A DNA stretch of 64,000 nt, taken from positions 248,001 to 312,000 of the forward strand of contig NZ_KB907122.1 in assembly GCF_000381825.1 (NCBI RefSeq). Reading direction: 5' to 3'. The notes below the pieces were generated by a model, which ran no database searches, was not told the DNA's origin, and was given only the letters and a program-made list of their open reading frames with translations. The position numbers were made by a program, and so were the translations under genes. The DNA comes from Thioalkalivibrio sp. ALJT (GTDB lineage: Bacteria; Pseudomonadota; Gammaproteobacteria; Ectothiorhodospirales; Ectothiorhodospiraceae). The stretch's first letter is position 1, and each line of letters opens with the position of its first letter. Below, piece by piece: positions 3,715-19,296 of this stretch.

Positions 3715-4950
3715 TCAGAGAGCGTCGAGCCCGCGCGCCAGGTCGCGCTGGATGTCGGCGACCGCCTCCAGCCCAACCGCAACCCGCACCAGGGCCTCGG
3801 TAATGCCCTGGGCCTCGCGCTTGTCCGGGTCCACGCGGCCGTGGGTGGTGGTGGCCGGGTGGGTAATGGTGGTCCTGGTATCGCCCAGGTTCGCGGTGAT
3901 CGACAGGAATTTCGTTGCGTCAATCACCGACCAGGCGGCCTCGCGCCCGCCGGCAACCTCGAAGCTCAGCACCCCGCCGAAGCCGCTTTGCTGGCGCCGC
4001 GCGATCGCGTGCTGCGGGTGCGATTCGAGCCCCGGGTAATGCACGGCGGCGACCTTCGGATGGGCCTGCAGCCACTGCGCCAGGGCGAGGGCGTTGTCGC
4101 TGTGGGCGCGCATACGCAGGGCCAGGGTCTCCAGCCCCTTGAGGAACACCCACGCATTGAACGGCGACAGCGTCGGCCCGGCGGTGCGCAGGAAGCCGTA
4201 GACGTCCTTGCCCACGCGCTCGGCGTCGCCGACCACCGCGCCGCCCAGGCAGCGCCCCTGGCCGTCGAGGAACTTGGTCGCCGAGTGGATGATGATGTCG
4301 GCGCCCAGATCCAGCGGACGCTGCAGGATCGGCGTGCAGAAGCAGTTGTCCACCGCCAGCAGCGCGTCATGCCGATGCGCGATCGCCGCCAGCGCGGCGA
4401 TGTCCACCACCTCGCCCAGCGGGTTGGACGGCGTCTCGCAGAAGTACAGCCGGGTATTCGGCTGGGTGGCGGCCTCCCAGGCCTCGAGGTTCGACAGCTC
4501 GACGTAGGTCACCTCGACGCCGAAGCGGGCGAGGTAGTTGTTGAAGAGCACCGTGGTGGTGCCGAAGACCGACCGCGAGCAGACCACGTGATCGCCGGCC
4601 TTCAGCAGGCCCATCATGGTCGCGAGGATCGCGGACATGCCGGAGGCGGTGGCCACGCAGGCCTCGCCCCCCTCCAGCGCGGCCAGACGATCCTGGAAGG
4701 TGCGCACCGTGGGGTTGGTGAAACGCGAATAGATGTTGCCGGGGGACTCGCCGCCAAATCGCGCGGCGGCCTCGGCAGCCGAACCGAACACGAAGCTGGA
4801 GGTGGGGAAGATCGCCTCGGAATGCTCGCCCTCCGGCGTGCGCCGGTAGCCGTGGCGGATGGCTACGGTCTGCGGGTCATAATCCCGGGGGTCAAACCAT
4901 TCGCGGGCGCAAGCCTCGGGGTCGAACGGGTCGGTATCGAAATCGGTCAT
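3715..4950 (-). CDS. metZ: O-succinylhomoserine sulfhydrylase
   Basis: A 411-residue PLP enzyme of the Cys/Met metabolism family (cystathionine gamma-synthase fold). It probably makes homocysteine directly from O-succinylhomoserine and sulfide. The PLP lysine lies in HSATKFLDGQGR; other family signatures are SGMSAI, CETPSNPLGE and the C-terminal TRTTITHPATTTHGR. MetZ is favoured over MetB or MetC by the overall sequence and by the lone, non-clustered setting, but paralogues in this family are hard to separate by eye. It starts 34 bases after the alr stop codon. No SAM-riboswitch-like structure is visible in that short gap. Confidence 0.88.
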   Translation of the reverse strand: MTDFDTDPFDPEACAREWFDPRDYDPQTVAIRHGYRRTPEGEHSEAIFPTSSFVFGSAAEAAARFGGESPGNIYSRFTNPTVRTFQDRLAALEGGEACVATASGMSAILATMMGLLKAGDHVVCSRSVFGTTTVLFNNYLARFGVEVTYVELSNLEAWEAATQPNTRLYFCETPSNPLGEVVDIAALAAIAHRHDALLAVDNCFCTPILQRPLDLGADIIIHSATKFLDGQGRCLGGAVVGDAERVGKDVYGFLRTAGPTLSPFNAWVFLKGLETLALRMRAHSDNALALAQWLQAHPKVAAVHYPGLESHPQHAIARRQQSGFGGVLSFEVAGGREAAWSVIDATKFLSITANLGDTRTTITHPATTTHGRVDPDKREAQGITEALVRVAVGLEAVADIQRDLARGLDAL

Positions 4951-4984
4951 CGCAGCATCCTGAAATCCGGGGTGCGCCAGTGTA

Positions 4985-6094
4985 TCAGCGCACCGGCTGC
5001 AGACGGTCGGCCACCCGCGTCAGAAGCTCGTAGCTGATCGTCCCCGCGGCGCGCGCGACACGTTCCACGGGCAGACCTTCGCCCCACAGGGTGGCCCGGT
5101 CCCCGACCCGCGCATCCGCCACCCCGGAGAGATCCACCGCCAGCATGTCCATGGACACGCGTCCGATCAGCGGGCAAAGCCGGTCGCCCACCCGCACCGG
5201 CGTACCCGACGGGGCATGCCGCGGGTAGCCATCGGCATAGCCCATGGCCACGATGCCGGCGCGGCCGGGTGCAGCAGCGGTCCAGGTCGCGCCATAGCCG
5301 ACCGTGCTGCCCGGCTCGAGGGGCTGAATCGCAATGATCGGGGCCTGCACCGTCATTGCCGGGCGCAGGTCAGCCTGCGGCCCCTCCGGGGGTGCCTCTG
5401 GTGGAACCGAGGCAGGATGCGCGCCGTAGAGCATGATCCCGGGCCGCGCCCAGCACGCGCGCGCAGAGCCCAGCCCCGGCGCCCGCCCCCAGCCTGCGAA
5501 CAGCGCCGCAGAGTTGGCCACGCTGGCCTGCCCCGGCAGCGACGCGACCACAGAGCCAAAGCGCTCCAGCTGGTGGGCATTTAACGGATGTTCCGGCTCG
5601 TCGGCACAGGCCAGATGAGTCATCCAGTGCAGACCAACGCCGCCGTGGCCGGCTGCGCCCAGGCGGCGGGCCACCGCTTCGGCATCCAGCGGATCGAAGC
5701 CAAGGCGGTTCATGCCGGTGTTGAGCTTGACCCACACGCTGGGCAGCCGGACCGAGGCCGCGTCGAGATGATCAAGCTGGGCGACCTCGTGGATTGCCGG
5801 CTCCAGGCCCAGCTCGTGGCAAGCACGCGTCTCAGCGGCATCGCGCGGTCCCTGCAGCACCAGCAACGGGCCGCCAAAGCCGGCCTCGCGCAGGACCCGA
5901 GCCTCGCCGACCTGCGAGACGGCCAGGCCATCGGTTGCTCCGGCGAGGGCCTCGGCCGTCCACAGCAGGCCGTGGCCATAACCTTCGGCCTTGACCACCG
6001 ACCACATGGGGACACCGGGCGCGAGACGACGCGCCACGGCCAGATTGTGCCGCAGTGCCTCGGGGTGGAGCTGGATGCTGGCTGCGCGTTTCAC
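4985..6094 (-). CDS. alr: Alanine racemase
   Basis: A 369-residue PLP-dependent enzyme supplying D-alanine for peptidoglycan. The PLP lysine is Lys35 in VVKAEGYGHG; the common form of this motif is KANAYGHG, so two flanking residues differ. The second catalytic residue is the tyrosine in VGYGATW, and GRVSMDM near the C-terminus is characteristic of the family. Length is normal. The gene starts 8 bases after the dnaB stop codon, matching the conserved rplI-dnaB-alr order of Gammaproteobacteria. Confidence 0.97.
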   Translation of the reverse strand: MKRAASIQLHPEALRHNLAVARRLAPGVPMWSVVKAEGYGHGLLWTAEALAGATDGLAVSQVGEARVLREAGFGGPLLVLQGPRDAAETRACHELGLEPAIHEVAQLDHLDAASVRLPSVWVKLNTGMNRLGFDPLDAEAVARRLGAAGHGGVGLHWMTHLACADEPEHPLNAHQLERFGSVVASLPGQASVANSAALFAGWGRAPGLGSARACWARPGIMLYGAHPASVPPEAPPEGPQADLRPAMTVQAPIIAIQPLEPGSTVGYGATWTAAAPGRAGIVAMGYADGYPRHAPSGTPVRVGDRLCPLIGRVSMDMLAVDLSGVADARVGDRATLWGEGLPVERVARAAGTISYELLTRVADRLQPVR

Positions 6095-9465: not shown

Positions 9466-9870
9466 TTATTCGGCAGCTGCCGAACCGTCGGAAGCGGACT
9501 CGCCGCCCTCATCATCGCGCTCGCGGCGACGGCCCTTGCCACCCTCTTCGTCCTGGCCCTTGGCCAGCGGGGAGGTCTCGGTCACGGCCTCATCCATGCG
9601 CATGGCCAGATGGCGCAGCACGGCGTCGTTGAACCGGAAGGCGCTGGCCAGCTCTTCCATCGCCTCTTCCGAGGCCTCGATGTTCATCAGCACGTAGTGG
9701 GCCTTCACCAGCTTCTGGATCGGGTAGGCCAGCTGACGGCGACCCCAGTCTTCCAGGCGGTGGATCGTGCCCTCGTGGCCTTCGACGAGCCCCTTGTAGC
9801 GCTCGATCATGGCCGGGACCTGCTCGCTCTGGTCCGGATGGACCAGGAATACGACTTCGTAGTGACGCAT
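9466..9870 (-). CDS. rpsF: 30S ribosomal protein S6
   Basis: A 134-residue S6 protein. The start is the ATG at 9870 ([18 protein letters not shown]), preceded by a strong AAGGAG site; a longer open frame upstream is not coding. The compact alpha/beta fold ends near residue 100 and is followed by a charged tail rich in Gly, Glu, Arg and Asp. Such tails are a site of RimK glutamylation in enterics, but whether that happens here cannot be read from the sequence. First gene of the rpsF-rpsR-DUF2232 group. Confidence 0.97.
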
Positions 9871-9921
9871 GCTGAACTCCTTGCGGGTAACAGCCTCCCG
9901 ACGCGCGGTGAGGCAAGGGTT

Positions 9922-9944
9922 CGGCCCGCCGGTGATGCCGGCCG
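9922..9944 (-). promoter_or_regulatory. Candidate S6:S18 leader hairpin upstream of rpsF
   Basis: In the rpsF 5' leader, CGGCC (9940-9944) pairs with GGCCG (9922-9926) around a loop containing CACCGG. Many bacteria carry an rpsF leader structure with a CCG trinucleotide bound by the S6:S18 complex for autoregulation. Position and the presence of CCG agree, but I cannot confirm the full consensus structure by eye. Confidence 0.3.
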
Positions 9945-9977
9945 GGCAGAAAAGCGCAATACCATATACCAGGCCAC

Positions 9978-10005
9978 GCACAACAACAAGCCGCCGGGAG
10001 GCGGC
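9978..10005 (-). terminator. Rho-independent terminator after mksE
   Basis: On the minus strand, GCCGCC-TCCC-GGCGGC (9990-10005) is followed by TTGTTGTTGTG, an imperfect U-rich tract. It lies 31 bases past the mksE stop codon and before the rpsF leader, so it would end the Mks operon transcript and insulate the ribosomal protein genes. Confidence 0.65.
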
Positions 10006-10036
10006 GACCGCCCGGCCGCCTCGGGGCGCGGCCGCA

Positions 10037-10651
10037 TCAGGCGCGCGAGTACTCGTATTCCTCGACCAGCTGCTCGAGAAAGCGCATGCCGGCCGCGCTG
10101 AGGATGTAGCGCGCAGCGCCGGTGCGGAAGGCGAAGTGGCGGGCCACCAGGAAGTCCATGGCCTCGTCCCAGCCCTTGTCGATGCGGGCCGTCGCCAGCA
10201 GGTCGCGGTACTCGGCGTCGGCGGCAAGGGCCTCGAGGTCGTCCTGCGCCAGCCCGGCATCGGGACGCCCGAGATACTGCAGGTCGCGCCCGGTACGCGC
10301 GTAATAGCGGCCGATGAGCAGCAGCACGACCTGCACCTTCAGGGCGTTCTCGTCATGTTCCTCCGACTCGTCGTCGCTCCCCTCGCGCAGGTAGAAGAAC
10401 CCGCCGCGCTCGTCGAACACCAGCTCCAGACCCAGGTGACGATACAGCTCGCGGAAATGCGCGAGGTGGCCGTAGACGACGTTGTACAACGGGTTGTCCT
10501 CGAGCGCGCCGCGGTCGGGGTTGTAGACCTGGCGCAGCAGCACCTGGCCCGCCACCAGCTGGCGGTAGATCGCGGCGCTGTGGTCGGGGTGGATGCCGGC
10601 GAAACCGCGCACCGGCTCAGTCGGCGGCGTGTTGGGCGCGCTCTCGGTCAT
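10037..10651 (-). CDS. mksE: MksE/JetB-like condensin subunit
   Basis: A 204-residue protein matching the MukE/MksE (DUF4194-like) accessory subunit of bacterial condensins. In such complexes it is a winged-helix (KITE) dimer that binds the kleisin. The ATG at 10651 ([10 protein letters not shown]) is used; the frame is open 17 codons further upstream but those codons overlap mksF. It overlaps the end of mksF by 35 bases, indicating translational coupling. An acidic insert ([12 protein letters not shown]) sits in the middle. Last gene of the four-gene operon; part of the Mks/Wadjet system inferred to act against plasmids. Confidence 0.85.
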
Positions 10652-12047
10652 CGGGGGATGTCTCCAGCAATTGGCGGCGGCGATAGACCCAGGTATCGCC
10701 ATCGGTGGCGGTCAGGGTGCGAAAGCGGTTGAGCACCCGCAGCTCCAGCCCCGGACGCGGCTCGCGCTCCAGGCGCTGCACGCAGGCCAGCAGGTCCGGC
10801 AGCACATAGCCATCGACCACGCCCTCCAGCCGGCCGTGCAGCTCGGCCACCAGGTCGCCGGTGGGGCGCAGTTCCAGCGAGTCGATCCAGGCATACAGCC
10901 GGCGCGAGCGCTCGAGATCCCGACGCGGCCCCTGGCGGCGGGCGGCGACCTCGGGGAGCACGGGCGCCTCGTGGGCGCGGCGCAGGTCGGCCAGGCGCAG
11001 CTCCAGCTCGGAAAACAGCATGCGGTAGTAGCTGGTGGTGGAGCCGAAGGCATAAGGGCGCGGCCGGCCGCGGCGCTTGAGGCCCAGCACGAAGCGGTTG
11101 TCCCGCGCGAATGCCCCGCCATCGAGGCGCGTCCGGCGCAGATCCTGGGTGCGGGTACGGCGGTGGGCCTCCAGCAGGCGCTGGTAGTGATGTTCCATCG
11201 CGTTGTACTGGAGCATCCCGGTGCGCGTCTTGCGCAGGAAGTGATCCACCTCGCGGGCAACCTGCTGGATCGGCTTGTAGGCGGCGTTCAGGCTCAGCCC
11301 GGAGCGGAAGACCTGGTCGGCGGCGGCCAGCTTGTCATGCCGCTCCAGCAGTTGCTGGATGCCGTCGAGGGTCGCGAACAGGTTTTCGCCCTCCTCCAGC
11401 TGCACGTCGCGATTGAGAAAAGCGAGCGTGGGCTTGATGTGGCGCTCGTAGAGATCGGCGATGCGCCCCAGCAGGTCGCCGCGAAAGCGCTGGAATTCCT
11501 CCGGTGCGCGGCTGGCGTCGCCCGAGATGTCGGCCAGATCGCGGCTGATGGCCTGCATGCGCCGGATGTTCTGCCGCACCAGTCCGACCAGGTGGCTCAG
11601 CTGGTCGAACAGGTCGTCCAACAGTTCGGTGTAATCGGGGTCGACGTCGCTGAAACTGGAACCGGCCAGGCGCTGCCGGGCATTCCACAGCCCGACCAGC
11701 CGCCCGCGCAGGCGGGCGTCGGTCAGCTCCTGGTACAGGGATTCGTTGCAGGTGCGCAGCAACCCGATCAGCGCCTCGTGCAGCACCAGACGCCGCTCGC
11801 CGGCTACCTTGTCGGCATCGACCACTAGCCCGCACTGGAACAGGTTGTCGGCACTGAACGCGAGCTCCAGGCGCTGGCGCACGCGGGCATCGCGATCGCG
11901 GGTGTAGCGCCGGACCTCGCGCACCAGTTCGTGCTCGGGGATGTAGCGCACCCCTGCGTGGTCCATGCGCTGGATCAGGGGAAACAGGGCCCCGGCGTGC
12001 TCGAACGCCAGGCGTGTGGTCTCCAGGGTGCTAAAGCGCTTGGCCAT
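10617..12047 (-). CDS. mksF: MksF/JetA-like kleisin subunit of Mks condensin
   Basis: A 476-residue largely helical protein, the MukF/MksF-type kleisin that bridges the SMC heads. The N-terminus (STLETTRLAFEHAGALFPLIQRM) is winged-helix-like, followed by long helices with heptad character. It overlaps the upstream mksB stop codon by 17 bases and the downstream mksE start by 35 bases. No nuclease or ATPase motif is present, as expected for the kleisin role. Family identity rests mainly on size, helical pattern and the neighbours, which together are convincing. Confidence 0.88.
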   Translation of the reverse strand: MAKRFSTLETTRLAFEHAGALFPLIQRMDHAGVRYIPEHELVREVRRYTRDRDARVRQRLELAFSADNLFQCGLVVDADKVAGERRLVLHEALIGLLRTCNESLYQELTDARLRGRLVGLWNARQRLAGSSFSDVDPDYTELLDDLFDQLSHLVGLVRQNIRRMQAISRDLADISGDASRAPEEFQRFRGDLLGRIADLYERHIKPTLAFLNRDVQLEEGENLFATLDGIQQLLERHDKLAAADQVFRSGLSLNAAYKPIQQVAREVDHFLRKTRTGMLQYNAMEHHYQRLLEAHRRTRTQDLRRTRLDGGAFARDNRFVLGLKRRGRPRPYAFGSTTSYYRMLFSELELRLADLRRAHEAPVLPEVAARRQGPRRDLERSRRLYAWIDSLELRPTGDLVAELHGRLEGVVDGYVLPDLLACVQRLEREPRPGLELRVLNRFRTLTATDGDTWVYRRRQLLETSPDDRERAQHAAD

Positions 12048-14973
12048 CGTCCTCTTCCAGCAGGGCGAACTGCTCGTGATCCAGCCACCGGGCCGCCGCC
12101 TCGCCGTGGGTGAACCCCTCGGCCCCGCCCCAGAACACCACTGTGCGCCGCTTGTCGTAGGGCTGACGGGTGTGCATCCGGCCCAGTTCGCAATGGCGCC
12201 CGATCTGGTGAATCAGCTCGCTGCTGGCACTGTGGGTGGCCGCCGCGAACAGGTTGAACCCCTGATGCTGCAGGCGCTCGAGCAATCCGGGGATCTGACC
12301 GACGTCGACGTTGGCGACCTCGTCGAGCACCAGCGGGAACGACAGTGCCACCCCGGGCGCCAGCACGCCCTGCAGCAGGCGCCGCACCAGCTCGAGGTTG
12401 ATCAGCATGGTGGTGGAGGTCGACTGGCTCTTGCTCTCCATGCCGGTCTCGTTGTGCTTGCGCGTGCGGTAGCTGATGCCGGTGATGATCCGGTCCATGG
12501 TCAGGCGACAGCCGTGGCGCGCCCCCTCGGCGGGATCGAAGAACTCGGCCACGAACACCCGCAGGCGTTCGTAGAAGGCATCGGACAGCAACTCGCCGGA
12601 GTACGGGTCCAGGGCCTCGGACTCCTCCACCAGGTTGCGGAAGCGCGGATCGCAATGGATGTCGACGCGGACTTCGGCGAGGTCGTTGATCGCGACTCCC
12701 TCCAGCTCCGTGTTCAGGCGGCGCTGGAAACGCTCGACATGCTCGGCGTTCACCTTCAGCGCCTGGCGGTAGCTGGCGACGCTCTCGTTGTGACTGCCGA
12801 TCCGCTCCTGCAGCAGCCGCCGCTGTTCCGGCAGCTCCGCGAACACCACGCGCAGCTCCTCGAAGGCGGCCGCGAGCACCCCGGCATCCGGGTACTCGTA
12901 GTACAGCGCCTCGGCGTGCTCGACAAGCATCCCGGCCTGCGCGAAGTAGCGCAGCGCTTCGAGGATCTCGCGGCGGCGCAGCTCGAGATCCTCGAGATCC
13001 AGTTCGATCGCATCCAGCCGCTCAGAGGTGATCCCGGCCGCCGGCAGCGGCTCCGCCTCCGCCGTGGCGCCACCCGCCTGGCGCTGCAGCCGCTCGACCC
13101 GTCGCCGCAGCTCCTCCAGCCGCGCCTGGCGCGCCTCCACCGCGCCCAGGGCGCTGCGCGCCTCGGCCAGCCGCGCCCGGGCCTCCTCGCGCCGCTCGCT
13201 GGCCGCGCGCTGCTGCACCTCCAGCTCCTGCTGCTGCTCGCGGCACCCGGCCAGTGCCTGCTCCGCCTCGCGGATGTTGACCTCCGCCGCCGGCAGCTTC
13301 TCCAGCAGTGCCAGCGAGGCCTCGATCTCCGCGACCACGCGCTCCGACTTGCGGATCCGTCCGGGACGATCCAGCGTGCCGGACTGTTCCGGAGAGAGCT
13401 CCGCGAGGCGCGCGCGGCGGGCGTCCAGCTGCTCCTCGAGTGCCGCGCGGCGCGCCTCCGGGTCCTGCCCCGCCGACGCCTGCGCGGCGAAGCTTTCGTC
13501 GAACCAGGCATAGCCCTCCGGGCGCTGCTCCAGCAGCCGCGCGAAGGCCGCCATGACCTCCATCTCCCCCGTCTCCAGCGCGCGGCCCGGGCTGGCCTGC
13601 AGCAGGCGCGGCTGTACCGCGCCCAGGGGTGCGGCCACCGCCTCCGGCAGTTGATGATGCAGCTGCCACCGGGCGCGCCGGGCACGGGCCTCCGCTTCCT
13701 GCAGTTCCTGCTCCAGCCGCTCGATCTGCGCGGCCAGCTGGGTGCGCTGCTGCTCGGCCGCCGCCTCGTTACGCAGGGCATTCAGGTGGCGCGTCTCCTC
13801 CGCCAGCTCCTGTTCGCGCTGCGCGCGCACCTCGTCCAGCGACAGGTCGGCCGGATAGCGCGCACGCAGGGTCTCGCCGTCGCGGCGGACGGCGCTGTAC
13901 TGGTCGAACTGGCGCTGGTGGGTCTCCACGGCCCCCGCCAGTTGCGCAAGCCGGCTGTCGATGTCGCGGCACTCGTCCTCCAGGGTGTCGACCACACCGC
14001 GGTGACTCTCCATCTGCGCGGCCGCCCGCTCGCGCTCGCGTCGCGCCTCCTCCTGGGCCCGGACGAGCCCGGCACCGAACGCCGCGAAGGCCTCCCGCGC
14101 CCCGGCCTTCTCGCGAAATTCGTGGTAGTGCGCGGCCAGCTGGTCGAAGCGGCGGCGTTCCTTCTCCATCCGCGTCAGGTGCTCGTGCTCCTTCTTCAGC
14201 TGCTGGTGGCGCTGCAGGAACTGGTCGATGTCGAGGTCGAGGGCATCGCTGGAAAACTTCTTGTCGGCCTCGACGATGCTGGCTACGGCCCGCGCCATCG
14301 CGGCCTCGTCGGCACGCATCTCGAACAGCAGCAGGATCAGCGTGCGCAGCGATTCGACGCTGCGGTCGTCCGCATCCGCCAGCGGCAGCACGCTGTAGCG
14401 CATCGCGTCGTCCGACATCAGGTCGCTGGCGTACAGCAGGGAACGCAGGCGGTCGCGGTCCTGGGCGAACAGGACATCGCGCGGTGCCATCCGGCGCACC
14501 GCCTCGGAGACCGTCTTCACCGACAGCTCCGGCACCGCGCGCCCGATCCCGTCGGGGTCGTCGTCAGCGCACCAGAACAGCGGTCGCAGGTCGGCCCACG
14601 GCACCGGCGCGAAGATGCGCCCGTAGCCGAGATCGCGGTTGCGATGGAGGATCTGGCAGTGGGTGCCAGCGGGATTGAGCACCTCCATGATCAGGAAGCT
14701 GTGCCGGCTCGGGAAGTAGTGCTGGAAGCTTTCCTCGTTGGTGTAGCCGGTGCCCGAGCGCGAGTTGCGGAAACCGAACTTGCGCTGGCTCTTGCGGAAG
14801 TTGTTCTCCGGCAGCAGGAACAGCCGCAGGGCGTTCAGCAGGCTGGACTTGCCCAGATTGCCGCTGCCCAGCAGCAGGGCATGCCGGTCCACCGGGAGCT
14901 CCACGTAGCAGAAGCCCGCGGAGTCCACCAGCACCAGGCGCCGGATCTCGAAGCGAAACGGGTTGCTGCTCAT
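12031..14973 (-). CDS. mksB: MksB/JetC SMC-like condensin ATPase
   Basis: A 980-residue SMC-like protein. The start is the ATG at 14973 (MSSNPFRFEIRRLVLVDS), preceded by GGGAGAG; the frame remains open upstream but there it overlaps mksG. Walker A is GSGNLGKSS near residue 38. A long coiled-coil region, rich in Glu, Arg and Ala, occupies roughly residues 250-780 with a hinge-like break in the middle. Walker B is FPLVLDEVANVD near the C-terminus, followed by AATHSASS. The region where the ABC signature is expected reads KSQSTSTTM rather than LSGGQ. In characterised Mks/Wadjet systems this ATPase extrudes DNA loops and detects circular plasmid DNA. Confidence 0.93.
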   Translation of the reverse strand: MSSNPFRFEIRRLVLVDSAGFCYVELPVDRHALLLGSGNLGKSSLLNALRLFLLPENNFRKSQRKFGFRNSRSGTGYTNEESFQHYFPSRHSFLIMEVLNPAGTHCQILHRNRDLGYGRIFAPVPWADLRPLFWCADDDPDGIGRAVPELSVKTVSEAVRRMAPRDVLFAQDRDRLRSLLYASDLMSDDAMRYSVLPLADADDRSVESLRTLILLLFEMRADEAAMARAVASIVEADKKFSSDALDLDIDQFLQRHQQLKKEHEHLTRMEKERRRFDQLAAHYHEFREKAGAREAFAAFGAGLVRAQEEARRERERAAAQMESHRGVVDTLEDECRDIDSRLAQLAGAVETHQRQFDQYSAVRRDGETLRARYPADLSLDEVRAQREQELAEETRHLNALRNEAAAEQQRTQLAAQIERLEQELQEAEARARRARWQLHHQLPEAVAAPLGAVQPRLLQASPGRALETGEMEVMAAFARLLEQRPEGYAWFDESFAAQASAGQDPEARRAALEEQLDARRARLAELSPEQSGTLDRPGRIRKSERVVAEIEASLALLEKLPAAEVNIREAEQALAGCREQQQELEVQQRAASERREEARARLAEARSALGAVEARQARLEELRRRVERLQRQAGGATAEAEPLPAAGITSERLDAIELDLEDLELRRREILEALRYFAQAGMLVEHAEALYYEYPDAGVLAAAFEELRVVFAELPEQRRLLQERIGSHNESVASYRQALKVNAEHVERFQRRLNTELEGVAINDLAEVRVDIHCDPRFRNLVEESEALDPYSGELLSDAFYERLRVFVAEFFDPAEGARHGCRLTMDRIITGISYRTRKHNETGMESKSQSTSTTMLINLELVRRLLQGVLAPGVALSFPLVLDEVANVDVGQIPGLLERLQHQGFNLFAAATHSASSELIHQIGRHCELGRMHTRQPYDKRRTVVFWGGAEGFTHGEAAARWLDHEQFALLEEDDGQAL

Positions 14974-15016
14974 CGCCACTCTCCCGGGAAACGCCGCCCC
15001 GGCGGCCACGGCCGCC

Positions 15017-15796
15017 TCAAAGGAGCATCTCCTGTTCCATGAAGCGACGGGTCGCGGAAAACGCCGCCGCCAGGCCATCCAGTTCCAGGTCCTGCGCCCG
15101 CCGGATCGCGCCGGCCAGCGACGCGGTGGAGTCCGGCGGGCGACGGAAACAGGGATGCCAGGGCCGCCAGTCGGCCGGCTGCAGAAACTCCACCGCCGGG
15201 CCCGCGTGTTCCCGCAGCCCGGCATACATCGCCAGCCCGCCGGGGTCGCAGTCGAATGCGCACAGTACCTGCTCGTAGCCGGCCAGCCACTCGCGCACCA
15301 GCGGCCGCAGCACCCGGTTCCCTCCGCCCAGCACCACGTCGGTGCCGGCAGGATCCAGCACCTCGTCGCGGAACCGCGAGGCCAGCTCCAGCATCGCCCG
15401 CGGGCGGAAGAAATTCTCCTCGTTCTCGATCACCAGAGCCCGGCGCTTGCGCTGGAAGCCCTGGCGGCAGATACCCGGCGCGAGGTAGACCACCGCGGGG
15501 CGTTCATCCTCCAGCCCGTGGTGGTGGACCAGCAGATACGACACTGCGGTGTCATGGCGGTGCGAGTCGCCCTGCCGCGCCGCCTCCGCACGGCTGGCCG
15601 GGCGCCGGGCCAAGGCCAGCAGGCGCTCCCAGTCGCCGGCGTCCGGGACCTCGACCTTCCAGCGCCCGCCCACCCGCGTGGTGCGGAACATCCGGCGGTG
15701 CCGGGCGCGCACCTCCTGCGGCAGGCACTTCAGGAAGGCCTCGTAGTTGAGCGCCTCGCCGCGCACGATGCGATCGAGATATCCCTGCAGCGTCAT
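15017..15796 (-). CDS. mksG: MksG/JetD-like TOPRIM nuclease subunit
   Basis: A 259-residue protein with a C-terminal TOPRIM domain: a glutamate motif (VIENEENFF, Glu124 to Glu127) and a DxD motif (FDCDPGG, Asp182 and Asp184), the catalytic pattern of JetD/MksG, the DNA-cleaving subunit of Wadjet. It is shorter than JetD proteins that carry an added N-terminal arm domain. It is the first gene of the operon, 31 bases after rlmB and 43 bases before mksB. The gene order G-B-F-E differs from the F-E-B-G order known in Pseudomonas and from jetABCD. Confidence 0.88.
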   Translation of the reverse strand: MTLQGYLDRIVRGEALNYEAFLKCLPQEVRARHRRMFRTTRVGGRWKVEVPDAGDWERLLALARRPASRAEAARQGDSHRHDTAVSYLLVHHHGLEDERPAVVYLAPGICRQGFQRKRRALVIENEENFFRPRAMLELASRFRDEVLDPAGTDVVLGGGNRVLRPLVREWLAGYEQVLCAFDCDPGGLAMYAGLREHAGPAVEFLQPADWRPWHPCFRRPPDSTASLAGAIRRAQDLELDGLAAAFSATRRFMEQEMLL

Positions 15797-15827
15797 CGCC
15801 GGTCCCGAGTCGTGGTTCCCCGACGGA

Positions 15828-16625
15828 TCAGCCCGGCTGACCCGCCCCCGCAGCGCCGAGCCTCTGGCGCCGGACCTCGAACAGCGTGACCCCGGTCGCC
15901 ACCGAGACGTTCAGGCTCTCCACCGTGCCTTCCATCGGGATGCGGGCAAGGTGATCGCAGGCTTCGCGCGTGAGACGCCGCATGCCTTCGCCTTCGGCCC
16001 CCATCACCAGCACGGTCGGGGGCCGGAGATCGACCTGGTACAGGCTTTGCTGCGCCTCGCCGGCCAACCCGACCGTCCACATGCCGGCATCCTTCAGGCT
16101 GGCCAGGGTCCGGGCGAGATTCCCGACGCTGACCACCGGCACGGTCTCGGCCGCCCCCGAGGCGACCTTGATTGCGGCCGGGGTCAGGGCCGCACTGTGA
16201 TGGCGTGGCATCACCACTGCACCGGCGCCGGCCGCATCCGCCGTGCGCAGACAGGCCCCCAGGTTATGCGGATCGGTCACGCCATCCAGGGCGAGCACCA
16301 GATCGAGGCCATCCCGAACGCGCGCGATCAGGCCCCTTTCGTCGACCACCGGGCGCGGCGTGCAGTGAACGATCACGCCCTGATTCTGGAACCCGGGGTG
16401 GTGCTGATCCAGACGCTCGCGCCCGACCCGTTCGACCGAGATCCCGAGTCCCTGCGCGCGCTGCAGCAGACGCTCCAGCGCCGGCTCCACCGGGTCGGTG
16501 GCCAGTTGCAGGCGCTTGATGCGCTGCGGGGCATGCTGCAGGACGGCCGCGACCGCATGGATCCCGCCGAAGGTCTCGGCCCGGGCGCCCTTGCCGGACT
16601 TGCCACCTTGGCCGCTCCGGCTCAT
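15828..16625 (-). CDS. rlmB: 23S rRNA (guanosine-2'-O-)-methyltransferase RlmB
   Basis: A 265-residue SPOUT-family enzyme that methylates G2251 of 23S rRNA in E. coli. The start is the ATG at 16625 (MSRSGQGGKSGKG). The N-terminal substrate-binding domain begins FGGIHAVAAVLQHAP; the knotted SAM-binding region includes DGVTDPHNLGACLRTADAAG, LVMGAEGEGMRRLT and the C-terminal ESLNVSVATGVTLFE. It lies 97 bases after rnr, the conserved rnr-rlmB pair. Confidence 0.96.
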   Translation of the reverse strand: MSRSGQGGKSGKGARAETFGGIHAVAAVLQHAPQRIKRLQLATDPVEPALERLLQRAQGLGISVERVGRERLDQHHPGFQNQGVIVHCTPRPVVDERGLIARVRDGLDLVLALDGVTDPHNLGACLRTADAAGAGAVVMPRHHSAALTPAAIKVASGAAETVPVVSVGNLARTLASLKDAGMWTVGLAGEAQQSLYQVDLRPPTVLVMGAEGEGMRRLTREACDHLARIPMEGTVESLNVSVATGVTLFEVRRQRLGAAGAGQPG

Positions 16626-16722
16626 GCCCCGCCCCCGGTGCCCGGGAGGCGGTCGCGAGGATCCGGCATCCAGCTGCCAGGGCCCGGCATTGGGCCATGC
16701 CACCGCCGCGCCATGGCCCGAC

Positions 16723-19296
16723 TCAGGAGGAACGCCGACGCCGGCCCCGGCGCCGCGGTGAACGAGAGGACCCGCCCGTCTCAGCCTCCGGCTCGACGAT
16801 GGTATTGCCATCCTTGTCGGTCTCCGGAGACGGGGGCGGAAGGGCCTCGTTACCGGGCTCGGGCGCATCCGGCACGTGTTCCTCCTGTGCCCCGTCAGCC
16901 GGGCGGTCCGTCACGGGGGCAGTCTCGCCATCGCCACCACCACGGCGGCGTCCGCCACGACGCCGCCGCTTCTTCTTCGGTGCCGGGGTGGCCTCCGCCT
17001 CGGTACCGGGCTCGGCCGCGTTGTCCACGGGCGCCGGTGCGGGCGCTTCCGCATCCTTCTTGCGCTTGCTGCGGCGGCTGCGCTTCTTTGGTGACGCTGC
17101 GGGCGGGGCCTGCTCGCCCGGCTCCCGCGCCAGTGCGAGGTCGATCTTGCGATCGTCGAGGCTGACCCGAGCAACCTGCACCTTCAGTTCATCGCCGATG
17201 CGGAAGACGCGGCCAGCGCGTTCCCCAGTCAGAGAGTGGCGCGCCGGATCGAAATGGTAGAAGTCGTTGTCGAGGCTGGTCACATGCACCAGGCCTTCGA
17301 TAAAGACGTCCTTGATCTCCACGAACAGGCCGAAGCCGGTGACCCCGGAGACGACACCTTCGAAGACCTCGCCGACCTTGTCCTGCATGTACTCGGCCTT
17401 CAGCCAGGCGACGGCGTCGCGCGTGGCATCATCGGCGCGGCGCTCGGCCATGGAGCAATGCTCGCCCAGCTTTTCCATGTCGCCATGCGAATACGGGAAG
17501 GCCTTGCGGCTGCCCTGGCGCAGGACATGACGAATGCCTCGATGGACCAGCAGATCCGGATAACGCCGGATGGGCGAGGTGAAGTGGGCGTAGTCGTCCA
17601 GCGCCAGGCCGAAGTGCCCATCCAGTTCCGGCGCGTAGACCGCCTGGCTCAACGAGCGCAGCAGCACGGTCTGGATCAGCTGCTGGTCAGGCCGCTCACG
17701 GGCGGCCTTCAACACCGCGGTGTAATCGCGCGGGCCGGGTTCGTCCCCGCCGCCCAGCGTCAGACCTGCCCCGTTCAGGAACTCGCGCAGTTCCTCGATC
17801 TTTTCGGTCGGCGGCTGATCGTGGATACGGTACAGGGCCGGCACCTTGTGCTTTTTGAGGAAACGCGCCGCAGCCACATTGGCCATGATCATGCATTCCT
17901 CGACGAGGCGATGGGCGTCGGTGCGCTCGGTGGGGACGATCTTTTCGATCTTGCGATCCTGGCCGAAGACAATCTTCGTCTCGGTGGTATCGAAGTCGAT
18001 CGCGCCGCGCCGATTGCGCGCCGCATGCAATGCCTTGAAGACCCGGTACAGCGACTCCAGGTGTGGCATCACATGTGCGTTCTTTTCGCGCAGGGGCTTG
18101 TCGCCGCCCAGCATCGCCGCCACGTCCTCGTAGATCAGGCGTGCGTGCGAACGGATCAGGCCCTCGTGAAAGCGGTAGCTCTTCAGCGCCCCGCGCGCGC
18201 CGACCTCCATCTCGCAGACCATGCTCAGGCGATCGACCTCGGGGTTCAGGGAACACAGTCCGTTGGACAGGGCCTCCGGCAGCATCGGGATCACGTTGTC
18301 GGGGAAGTACACCGAGGTACCGCGGGTACGCGCCTCGCGGTCCAGCGCCGCGTCACGCTCGACGTAATGCGACACGTCGGCAATCGCCACCCACACCCGC
18401 CAACCCTTCCCTTCGGGCTCGCAGTACAGGGCATCGTCGAAATCGCGGGCATCATCGCCATCGATGGTCACAAAAGGTTTGTCACGCAGATCCAGGCGCC
18501 CTTTCTTGTCCTTCTCGGCCACCTCGGCACCCAGCTCATCCGCCGCGGCAGTCACCTCGTCCGGCCACTCGTGGGGCAGGCCATGGGCGCGGATCGCGAT
18601 GTCGATCTCCATGCCCGGGGCCATGTGTTCGCCCAGCACCTCCAGCACGTCGCCTTTCAGGCGCGCGGTACGCGAGGCGGACTCGCGGATTCCCACCACC
18701 ACAATCTGATCGTCCGCTGCCTCGCCCAGGCCATCGGGCGGCACCAGGATGTCATGGGTGATGCGCTTGTTGTCCGGAGTCAGGATGCCGACACCGTCCT
18801 CGATGCGCAGGCGCCCGACCACCTGCGTCGTGTTGCGCTCCAGCACTTCCACGATCCCGCCCTCGCGGCGACCACGGCGGTCCACGCCCATCACCCGTGC
18901 CAGGGCGCGGTCCCCATGGAACACGCCCCGCATCTGGCGCGGCGACAGGAACAGGTCGTCATCCTGCTCGTCCGGCACCAGGAACCCGAAACCGTCCGGG
19001 TGCCCGATCACGCGCCCGCGGATCAGGTCTTCCTGGTTGACCGGGAGATAGGCGCCGCGGCGGTTGCAAAGCGCCTGCCCGTCACGCTCCATCGCCTTCA
19101 GGCGGCGGCGCAGGGCCTCCAGACGATCATCGTCGTCGATCTCCAGGCGTTCGGCGATATCGTCATAGGAAAGCGGATTGTCCGCTTGCTGCAGGAGCCC
19201 GAGGATGAACTCGCGACTCGGAATGGGGTTGTCGTACTTCTGCGCCTCGCGCTCGAAATTCGGATCGACGGCGGGCTTGCGGTGTTTTCTTGGCAT
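16723..19296 (-). CDS. rnr: Ribonuclease R
   Basis: An 857-residue 3'-5' exoribonuclease of the RNB family, processive on structured RNA. The order is an N-terminal helix-turn-helix and cold-shock domains, the RNB catalytic domain with the acidic cluster DGDDARDFDDAL and the SPIRRYPDLLVHR region, then an S1 domain (EGVVSGVTGFGLFVEIKD). The last ~130 residues form a low-complexity tail of KKRSRRSKRKK-type basic stretches alternating with acidic/Pro/Ala runs, like the basic tail of E. coli RNase R but longer. The ATG at 19296 fits the family N-terminus. Confidence 0.97.
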   Translation of the reverse strand: MPRKHRKPAVDPNFEREAQKYDNPIPSREFILGLLQQADNPLSYDDIAERLEIDDDDRLEALRRRLKAMERDGQALCNRRGAYLPVNQEDLIRGRVIGHPDGFGFLVPDEQDDDLFLSPRQMRGVFHGDRALARVMGVDRRGRREGGIVEVLERNTTQVVGRLRIEDGVGILTPDNKRITHDILVPPDGLGEAADDQIVVVGIRESASRTARLKGDVLEVLGEHMAPGMEIDIAIRAHGLPHEWPDEVTAAADELGAEVAEKDKKGRLDLRDKPFVTIDGDDARDFDDALYCEPEGKGWRVWVAIADVSHYVERDAALDREARTRGTSVYFPDNVIPMLPEALSNGLCSLNPEVDRLSMVCEMEVGARGALKSYRFHEGLIRSHARLIYEDVAAMLGGDKPLREKNAHVMPHLESLYRVFKALHAARNRRGAIDFDTTETKIVFGQDRKIEKIVPTERTDAHRLVEECMIMANVAAARFLKKHKVPALYRIHDQPPTEKIEELREFLNGAGLTLGGGDEPGPRDYTAVLKAARERPDQQLIQTVLLRSLSQAVYAPELDGHFGLALDDYAHFTSPIRRYPDLLVHRGIRHVLRQGSRKAFPYSHGDMEKLGEHCSMAERRADDATRDAVAWLKAEYMQDKVGEVFEGVVSGVTGFGLFVEIKDVFIEGLVHVTSLDNDFYHFDPARHSLTGERAGRVFRIGDELKVQVARVSLDDRKIDLALAREPGEQAPPAASPKKRSRRSKRKKDAEAPAPAPVDNAAEPGTEAEATPAPKKKRRRRGGRRRGGGDGETAPVTDRPADGAQEEHVPDAPEPGNEALPPPSPETDKDGNTIVEPEAETGGSSRSPRRRGRRRRSS

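Follow-up and report, generated by a model that had tools for sequence, protein, structure and literature searches.

A divergent Mks/Wadjet-like operon with its nuclease gene first in Thioalkalivibrio sp. ALJT and its relatives

Wadjet systems fall into three types that differ in operon organisation and act by extruding and then cutting circular DNA, as described in PMC12647877 and PMC10586767. In all three, the JetABCD operon brings together a structural maintenance of chromosomes (SMC) ATPase, a kleisin, a KITE subunit and a TOPRIM nuclease. According to PMC10123090, the MksBEFG system of Corynebacterium glutamicum, a Wadjet of type I, follows the order mksFEBG (also kept in Pseudomonas), has an MksB of 1111 amino acids (aa) and includes a nuclease whose crystal structure is reported. 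MukBEF of Escherichia coli K-12 is encoded as mukF-mukE-mukB, with a mukB of 4461 nt and no nuclease gene of the kind discussed here in the stretch viewed. The subject of this study is an operon of Thioalkalivibrio sp. ALJT, located between rlmB and rpsF in a stretch of 64,000 nucleotides (contig NZ_KB907122.1, positions 248,001 to 312,000) referred to below as the window. It encodes the same four kinds of subunits as the C. glutamicum system, but in the order nuclease, SMC, kleisin and KITE subunit (G-B-F-E) and with an SMC of 980 aa. The operon is Mks/Wadjet-like, but of a divergent and little-described branch with a standing gene order of its own. A new observation is that in Marinobacter the nuclease of this branch has been deleted repeatedly while the motor was kept under constraint.

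The four tightly packed genes occupy the minus strand from 15796 to 10037.

15796-15017, minus strand: G, compact TOPRIM nuclease (MksG/JetD-like), 259 aa, from a fold match and conserved catalytic-type residues
14973-12031, minus strand: B, SMC-type ATPase (MksB-like), 980 aa, from Walker motifs and a profile-profile comparison of the N-head
12047-10617, minus strand: F, MukF-type kleisin, 476 aa, from an AlphaFold model and Foldseek
10651-10037, minus strand: E, MksE-type KITE subunit, 204 aa, from Pfam MksE (PF21980); the frame opens at 10702

G and B are separated by 43 nt, while B and F overlap by 17 nt and F and E by 35 nt. An earlier note on this DNA, made from the letters alone, had proposed four overlapping or closely spaced genes for a TOPRIM protein, an SMC ATPase, a kleisin and a KITE subunit, in the order G-B-F-E. 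Both the gene content and the order, the latter read directly from the frames, are as it proposed.

G and F are identified by their folds, since PDB searches by sequence and by profile did not identify them. Single G, F and E proteins gave no meaningful match; the four family profiles recovered no chain of JetD, MukF or MukB, and MukE came up with an E-value (E) of just 0.36. The AlphaFold model of G (pLDDT 93) has as its top Foldseek match the entry 8b7f, 'Nuclease from C. glutamicum' (E 3.2e-5), whose TOPRIM fold is common to G. Structural comparison of the two gives Z 14.4 and a root-mean-square deviation of 2.8 over 147 residues, covering G residues 85-259. We take 8b7f to be MksG, in agreement with the crystal structure reported for the C. 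glutamicum nuclease. The next-best folds are Topo VI-A, the P. aeruginosa JetD (7til, Z 10.5) and Spo11 (Z >9), followed by other TOPRIM proteins from Z 6.9. By profile-profile comparison, G resembles JetD (E 4.7e-9). The part preceding the TOPRIM match is short: G has about 84 residues there, 8b7f about 216 and 7til 205. The helices and the beta hairpin predicted for this region of G, which the alignment barely probed, could form a minimal winged helix. Residues E124, N125, D182 and E254-Q255-E256 are found in 58 of 58 aligned G sequences and D184 in 57 of 58. The G of the window has them all, among them the acidic residues of the TOPRIM metal-binding site (E124, D182, D184).

The SMC subunit B carries a Walker A motif (GSGNLGKSS), a signature (QSTST) and a Walker B motif (FPLVLDEVA). 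The ABC signature (residues 848-856) lacks the usual glycines and reads QSTST in most of the sub-branch that includes the operon of the window; four more distant relatives have QSGGT. Profile-profile comparison of the B heads gave E 2.6e-20 (N-part) and 8.4e-11 (C-part) against an MksB-like set, 3.1e-7 and 1.9e-4 against canonical JetC and 3.4e-5 and 3e-6 against E. coli MukB, values that are not strictly comparable as the sets hold 6, 12 and 1 sequences. The MksB-like set, made of the genomes of family f160 with loci L055 and L014, was our means of comparison with Pseudomonas MksBEF, a chromosomal condensin. Its label, 'MksB-like' or 'Pseudomonas-type', is our own and rests on an F-E-B layout and an SMC of about 940 aa; annotation did not confirm it. 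This set provides the nearest motor, with a similar SMC length, but its loci L052 and L055 are laid out as F-E-B (F told by its place) with no adjacent G, whereas the operon of the window has a nuclease, and has it first.

For F, the AlphaFold model (pLDDT 75) has MukBEF, MukEF or MukF entries as its first nine Foldseek matches, all with probability 1.00. The kleisin fold is like that of E. coli MukBEF, with Z 14.1-15.2 against MukF-type structures, where the best unrelated helical protein reaches Z 12.9; the Wadjet-II JetABC entry 9qe0 (Z 9.7) falls inside the background of unrelated proteins. E is a Pfam MksE protein (E 1.9e-24), as are 12 of 12 members of its alignment (A8), and scores only 24 bits with the NCBIfam MksE model, whose cut-off is 400. 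Its profile is close to the E subunits of the MksB-like set (E 2.4e-9) and more distantly similar to the KITE subunit of E. coli MukBEF (E 9.5e-5).

Relatives occur in 5 of 369 genomes of the class, own included, and in 24 of 398 genomes of the phylum. The latter comprise the own genome, six genomes with eight matches below 1e-90, which belong to this branch, and 17 genomes at 6e-12 to 5e-8, among which the MksB-like set falls. A pattern search of named genomes, which was not exhaustive, gave at least 61 loci, one of them (L115) with no full frame; genera with relatives include Marinobacter, Halomonas and Colwellia. Among the 13 strongly matching loci, 12 read G-B-F-E (in one, E is cut at a contig end) and one reads G-B at a contig end. 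The 60 named loci comprise 46 with G-B-F-E, ten with B-F-E, two with G-B, one with G-B-F and one with G, and none with any other order. Short or broken frames occur in three of the 46 (L098 in B and F, L087 in F, L105 in E), and L067, L086, L095, L099 and L101 are incomplete or cut by locus or contig ends. Three loci are present in both sets (L043/L088, L045/L077, L046/L093).

Canonical places were found with the JetD_C family in 35 of 299 genomes, and 16 were fetched. In 12 of the 16, a frame of 976-1214 aa directly precedes a JetD of 382-426 aa, whereas G has 259 aa and comes first; only two of these 12 were typed, both as type I. The other four consist of L158 (unresolved), L173 (no adjacent SMC-sized frame), L167 (an intervening frame) and L170 (a 724-aa frame near the contig start). 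The earlier note had contrasted the nuclease-first operon with canonical systems that place the kleisin first and the nuclease last. The nuclease-first order itself holds, but it belongs to the whole divergent branch and did not arise at this site, so that a local rearrangement of a canonical operon is ruled out. A literature search, covering open-licence full texts only, found no title or abstract concerning the G-B-F-E order, and none dealing with Marinobacter together with MksB.

Several variants of the operon deserve mention. The locus L014 (2770-8259, genome G324), one of the five relatives in the class, is a gammaproteobacterial outlier of order F-E-B-G (F and G assigned from their position and size). 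It combines an MksB-like SMC with a G-like frame of 287 aa, similar to the G of this branch (profile-profile E 1.5e-6) and given no match by PADLOC, and is a possible bridge between the two orders. Two extra frames between B and F were seen in one of the 12 strongly matching G-B-F-E loci; those of the Photobacterium plasmid (L009:10929-11703) include one annotated DUF5406. Two different copies from distant sub-branches are found within single genomes, G533 (L045, L048) and G732 (L044, L050), and also in G869. B is fragmented into two pieces in L098 and L101 and into three in G841.

The divergence of the branch is also apparent from profile searches. No Pfam or NCBIfam model recognised B, F or G above its curated cut-off. 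The PADLOC profiles for Wadjet I-III, applied singly and apart from the PADLOC system rules, gave no match for the G or F of the window and at best 2.1e-5 for B and 1.8e-5 for E; as controls, two canonical JetC proteins scored E 0 and two canonical JetD proteins 1e-134 and 1e-198. In the relatives, G gave JetD matches in up to 7 of 14 sequences, 5.1e-8 at best, while F had a PADLOC match in 0 of 13. The 398 sampled genomes yielded no convincing JetD of type III, the best match (E 1.6e-7) lying in genomes that also hold a PF09983 JetD. The strong JetC, JetA and JetD matches of Wadjet I-III are therefore missing from the operon, as is the kleisin-KITE-SMC-nuclease order of type I. With MksBEF it shares an MksE-type KITE subunit and an MksB-like SMC, but not the nuclease-free F-E-B order; with MukBEF it shares a MukF-fold kleisin, but not an SMC of the MukB type, of about 1486 aa. 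What unites it with the Mks/Wadjet superfamily is the presence of all four subunit kinds in one gene cluster and of the acidic metal-binding residues of TOPRIM in the nuclease. The assignment in the earlier note to Mks/Wadjet thus stands for the composition; the Wadjet I-III profiles, however, match E and B weakly and G and F not at all, and the heads of the motor are nearest to the MksB-like set.

The surroundings of the operon in the window are as follows.

15828..16868 as listed (true start probably further in), minus strand: rlmB (rRNA methyltransferase), upstream flank, from a PDB match
9989..10009, minus strand: hairpin followed by TTGTTGTTG, a possible terminator (2 matches with 2.0 expected, not above chance)
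9871..10036, minus strand: intergenic stretch between E and rpsF, containing a TTGTTG ... TATATGGTAT stretch and an rpsF-proximal block of about 50 nt
9466..9870, minus strand: rpsF (bS6), downstream flank

The RlmB flank, identified by PDB 1gz0 (YjfH, E 1.5e-64), ends at 15828, 31 nt from G, and 166 nt separate E from the start of bS6 at 9870. Insertion of the operon between these two genes is supported by comparison with relatives. In the 47 genomes of the order, G was found in one, its own, and B in two (E<=1e-3), its own and G008. The latter has a 65-residue match (E 8.2e-4) within a 155-aa frame and no adjacent frame matching G, F or E, and a convincing copy of the operon is present in none of the 46 genomes besides its own. 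RlmB was found in 46 of the 47, and 30 rlmB loci were fetched. The gap between rlmB and rpsF, taken from the RlmB to the bS6 alignment, measures 114-279 bp in 18 of them and about 1.1 kb in three. bS6 was not found within the locus in nine, one of which is the window itself and two of which are cut short. Eight aligned intergenic sequences look accounted for by the end of rlmB, a short spacer and the rpsF leader, as judged by alignment and with no profile search. The window retains the TTGTTG ... TATATGGTAT stretch and the leader of about 50 nt found before rpsF in operon-free relatives, which places the operon upstream of a promoter-like region of rpsF. Finally, the nearest relatives of its SMC are those of Halomonas and Marinobacter. 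Acquisition at this site, which the earlier note had deduced from the usual proximity of the flanking genes, is thereby supported, the interval being short and operon-free in most loci. Some congeners, among them the one nearest in its RlmB (G020), have a longer interval filled by other open frames; those of L147-L153 include His/Asp-rich, secreted-looking ones, and the place looks like a small variable site.

On these grounds, the operon probably encodes a horizontally acquired, four-subunit defence complex that would cut small circular DNA in a Wadjet-like manner. B, F and E would form a MukBEF/MksBEF-like, probably dimeric, ATP-driven extruder of DNA loops. G, as a metal-dependent TOPRIM nuclease, would dimerise, dock on this motor and cut once a whole small circular DNA has been reeled in, as in Wadjet. 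Loop extrusion, complex formation and plasmid cutting by the four proteins are what we infer by analogy with the described systems.

Of 100 Marinobacter species, 55 have a B match (E<=1e-20) and 49 a G match (E<=1e-10); every one of the 49 has B as well. Full-length G is missing in 8 of the 55 B-bearing species: six have no G match at all (G809, G815, G817, G870, G872, G875), and G799, a single-contig genome, and G837 keep only the last 45-46 residues. Other defects of G are fragments at contig edges (G811, G877) and a missing end (G821). The presence of the motor without the cutter, and never of the cutter without the motor, in these 100 species suggests that B, F and E are useful alone there.

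At nine named loci, B, F and E are intact with no adjacent G; L101 also counts as lacking G in the tally, but its sequence starts within that gene. In seven of the nine (L078, L090, L106, L072, L079, L059 and L110), about 15 codons from the end of G survive nearly intact, abutting the start of B, and in L058 and L097 they are degraded; retention of the ribosome-binding site of B would explain such a remnant. A tree of 58 SMC sequences requires seven changes for the loss of G, at least four of them forced by well-supported branches, but it was made by a quick method that warns of long branches, and 41 of 500 shuffles of the label were as low. The ratio of non-synonymous to synonymous substitution rates (dN/dS) for B, F and E is 0.02-0.05 between the G-less sisters L090 and L106 and 0.11-0.13 between L058 and L059, the latter with dS of 1.2-1.4, near saturation. 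Among loci that carry G, 87 of 87 pairs, which are not independent, show a dN/dS that is higher for G than for B (medians of 0.135 for G, 0.089 for E, 0.054 for B and 0.049 for F). The motor subunits of G-less L079 are 87-97% identical to those of G-bearing L074 and L075. Marinobacter lineages having repeatedly lost G while keeping B, F and E under purifying selection, the motor seems useful without the nuclease.

Simple loss of the nuclease does not apply to all nine loci. It is ruled out for three, because a full-length G is present at another place in their genomes (G892, G895, G887), with no B-F-E within the 16 kb read, and must be qualified for G894, which has a G elsewhere with a changed C-terminal end. 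By coordinates, G892, G895, G887 and G894 are G832, G802, G866 and G821 of the G survey. In G895, the genome of L110, what follows the lone full-length G is a remnant in which B codons 4-50 are fused to F codons 233-270 (L175:7618-8649). This scar implies reciprocal decay of two operons in at least one genome, where G could act in trans. Beside the lone G of G892, G887 or G894, no comparable scar was found. The five remaining genomes have no full-length G, with only the remnant in G890; judged by their assemblies, they have lost the cutter.

We propose tentatively, at a little below even chances, that these operons form a branch of their own among condensins armed with a nuclease, and that nuclease and motor separate there in nature, by repeated deletion of G under constraint on the motor and by reciprocal decay in at least one genome. 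If true, a Wadjet-like weapon would have been converted repeatedly into a condensin without nuclease, as has been proposed for how MksBEF and MukBEF arose. The present work adds a branch that is common in Marinobacter, whose subunits are matched weakly by PADLOC profiles and whose nuclease carries only a short N-terminal part. Marinobacter loci with and without G offer a natural setting for studying the role of the motor in the absence of the cutter.

Several observations weigh against a role in defence. B, at 55 of 100 Marinobacter species, is unusually common for a defence system. The loci are also unusually settled, 29 of the 61 named ones lying at two recurring gene neighbourhoods (19 and 10, with 32 at neither), and the Marinobacter loci look more settled than those of other relatives. 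The strong constraint on B-F-E without G moreover allows a chromosomal role for the motor. Such a condensin, organising the chromosome like Pseudomonas MksBEF and using G as an accessory or regulatory cutter of host DNA, is the alternative that survives best, although we consider it unlikely. It would account for the affinity of the B heads and of E to the MksB/MksE-like set, for the nine loci that keep B-F-E under purifying selection with no adjacent G, and for the 8 of 55 species with the SMC and no full-length G against 0 of 49 with G and no SMC. It fits poorly with the absence of a convincing copy from the 46 other genomes of the order, with relatives on plasmids and near defence genes, with the separate SMC encoded by the operon's own chromosome, with the catalytic-type residues kept in G and with the lone full-length G kept elsewhere in three genomes.

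Two relatives are carried by plasmids, of 599 kb in Photobacterium and 320 kb in Methylophaga, where their annotation is 'hypothetical protein' or none. A Pfam scan of ten selected neighbour proteins from five loci revealed further company. In L048, the genes upstream of G encode a UvrD helicase and an AAA protein of the OLD-TOPRIM kind, as in Gabija (by domains only). Upstream of G in L049, one gene away, are a methylase and a type III restriction enzyme, and the locus has a frame (4268-5707) with SEC-C and DUF4145 matches only. In L044, a SMODS (CBASS-type) synthase starts right after E (9707-10699). WYL-domain regulators are divergent from G in L010 (6230-7057), L013 (4100-4924) and L044 (3169-3993, before G), and a PIN-domain protein follows E in L010. 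Neighbours of this kind speak for a role of the wider branch in defence. Those of three relatives, which are Gabija-like, type III restriction and CBASS-like genes, fit anti-phage action as well, and plasmid specificity is beyond what sequence can tell. Defence against phages instead of plasmids, by the same motor-plus-nuclease mechanism, is nevertheless improbable, as the tested systems of this architecture act on plasmids (PMC10586767 and PMC10123090). A phage origin of the operon was rejected: phage records gave no match at 1e-5, and none of 19 pattern matches in viral contigs was confirmed.

Compared with a complex acquired as a member of its own branch, a plain Wadjet of type I, II or III with genes shuffled at this site is very unlikely. 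The likeness of the G TOPRIM to JetD, by profile and in up to 7 of 14 relatives with PADLOC, speaks for it, but the PADLOC scores of the window fall far from those of the canonical controls and the G-B-F-E order is common to the whole branch. Least credible is an ancestral operon of the genus lost by every sampled relative: losses are common in Marinobacter, but the 46 other genomes hold no convincing copy, rlmB and rpsF are close in 18 of 30 loci and the nearest relatives of the SMC are in Halomonas and Marinobacter.

On other aspects, the terminator that the earlier note placed after the last gene is weaker than claimed. The two hairpin matches at 10009-9989 overlap and equal the mean of 2.0 in shuffled sequence. 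Their T-rich tail, TTGTTGTTG, also occurs upstream of rpsF in operon-free relatives and may therefore belong to the rpsF promoter. The G+C content of the operon (0.67-0.75 in 1-kb windows) is about that of its surroundings and uninformative on its origin. No sigma-70-like promoter was matched in 9800-16900. Together with the spacing of 31 nt between rlmB and G, this fits a plausible read-through into G from rnr-rlmB.

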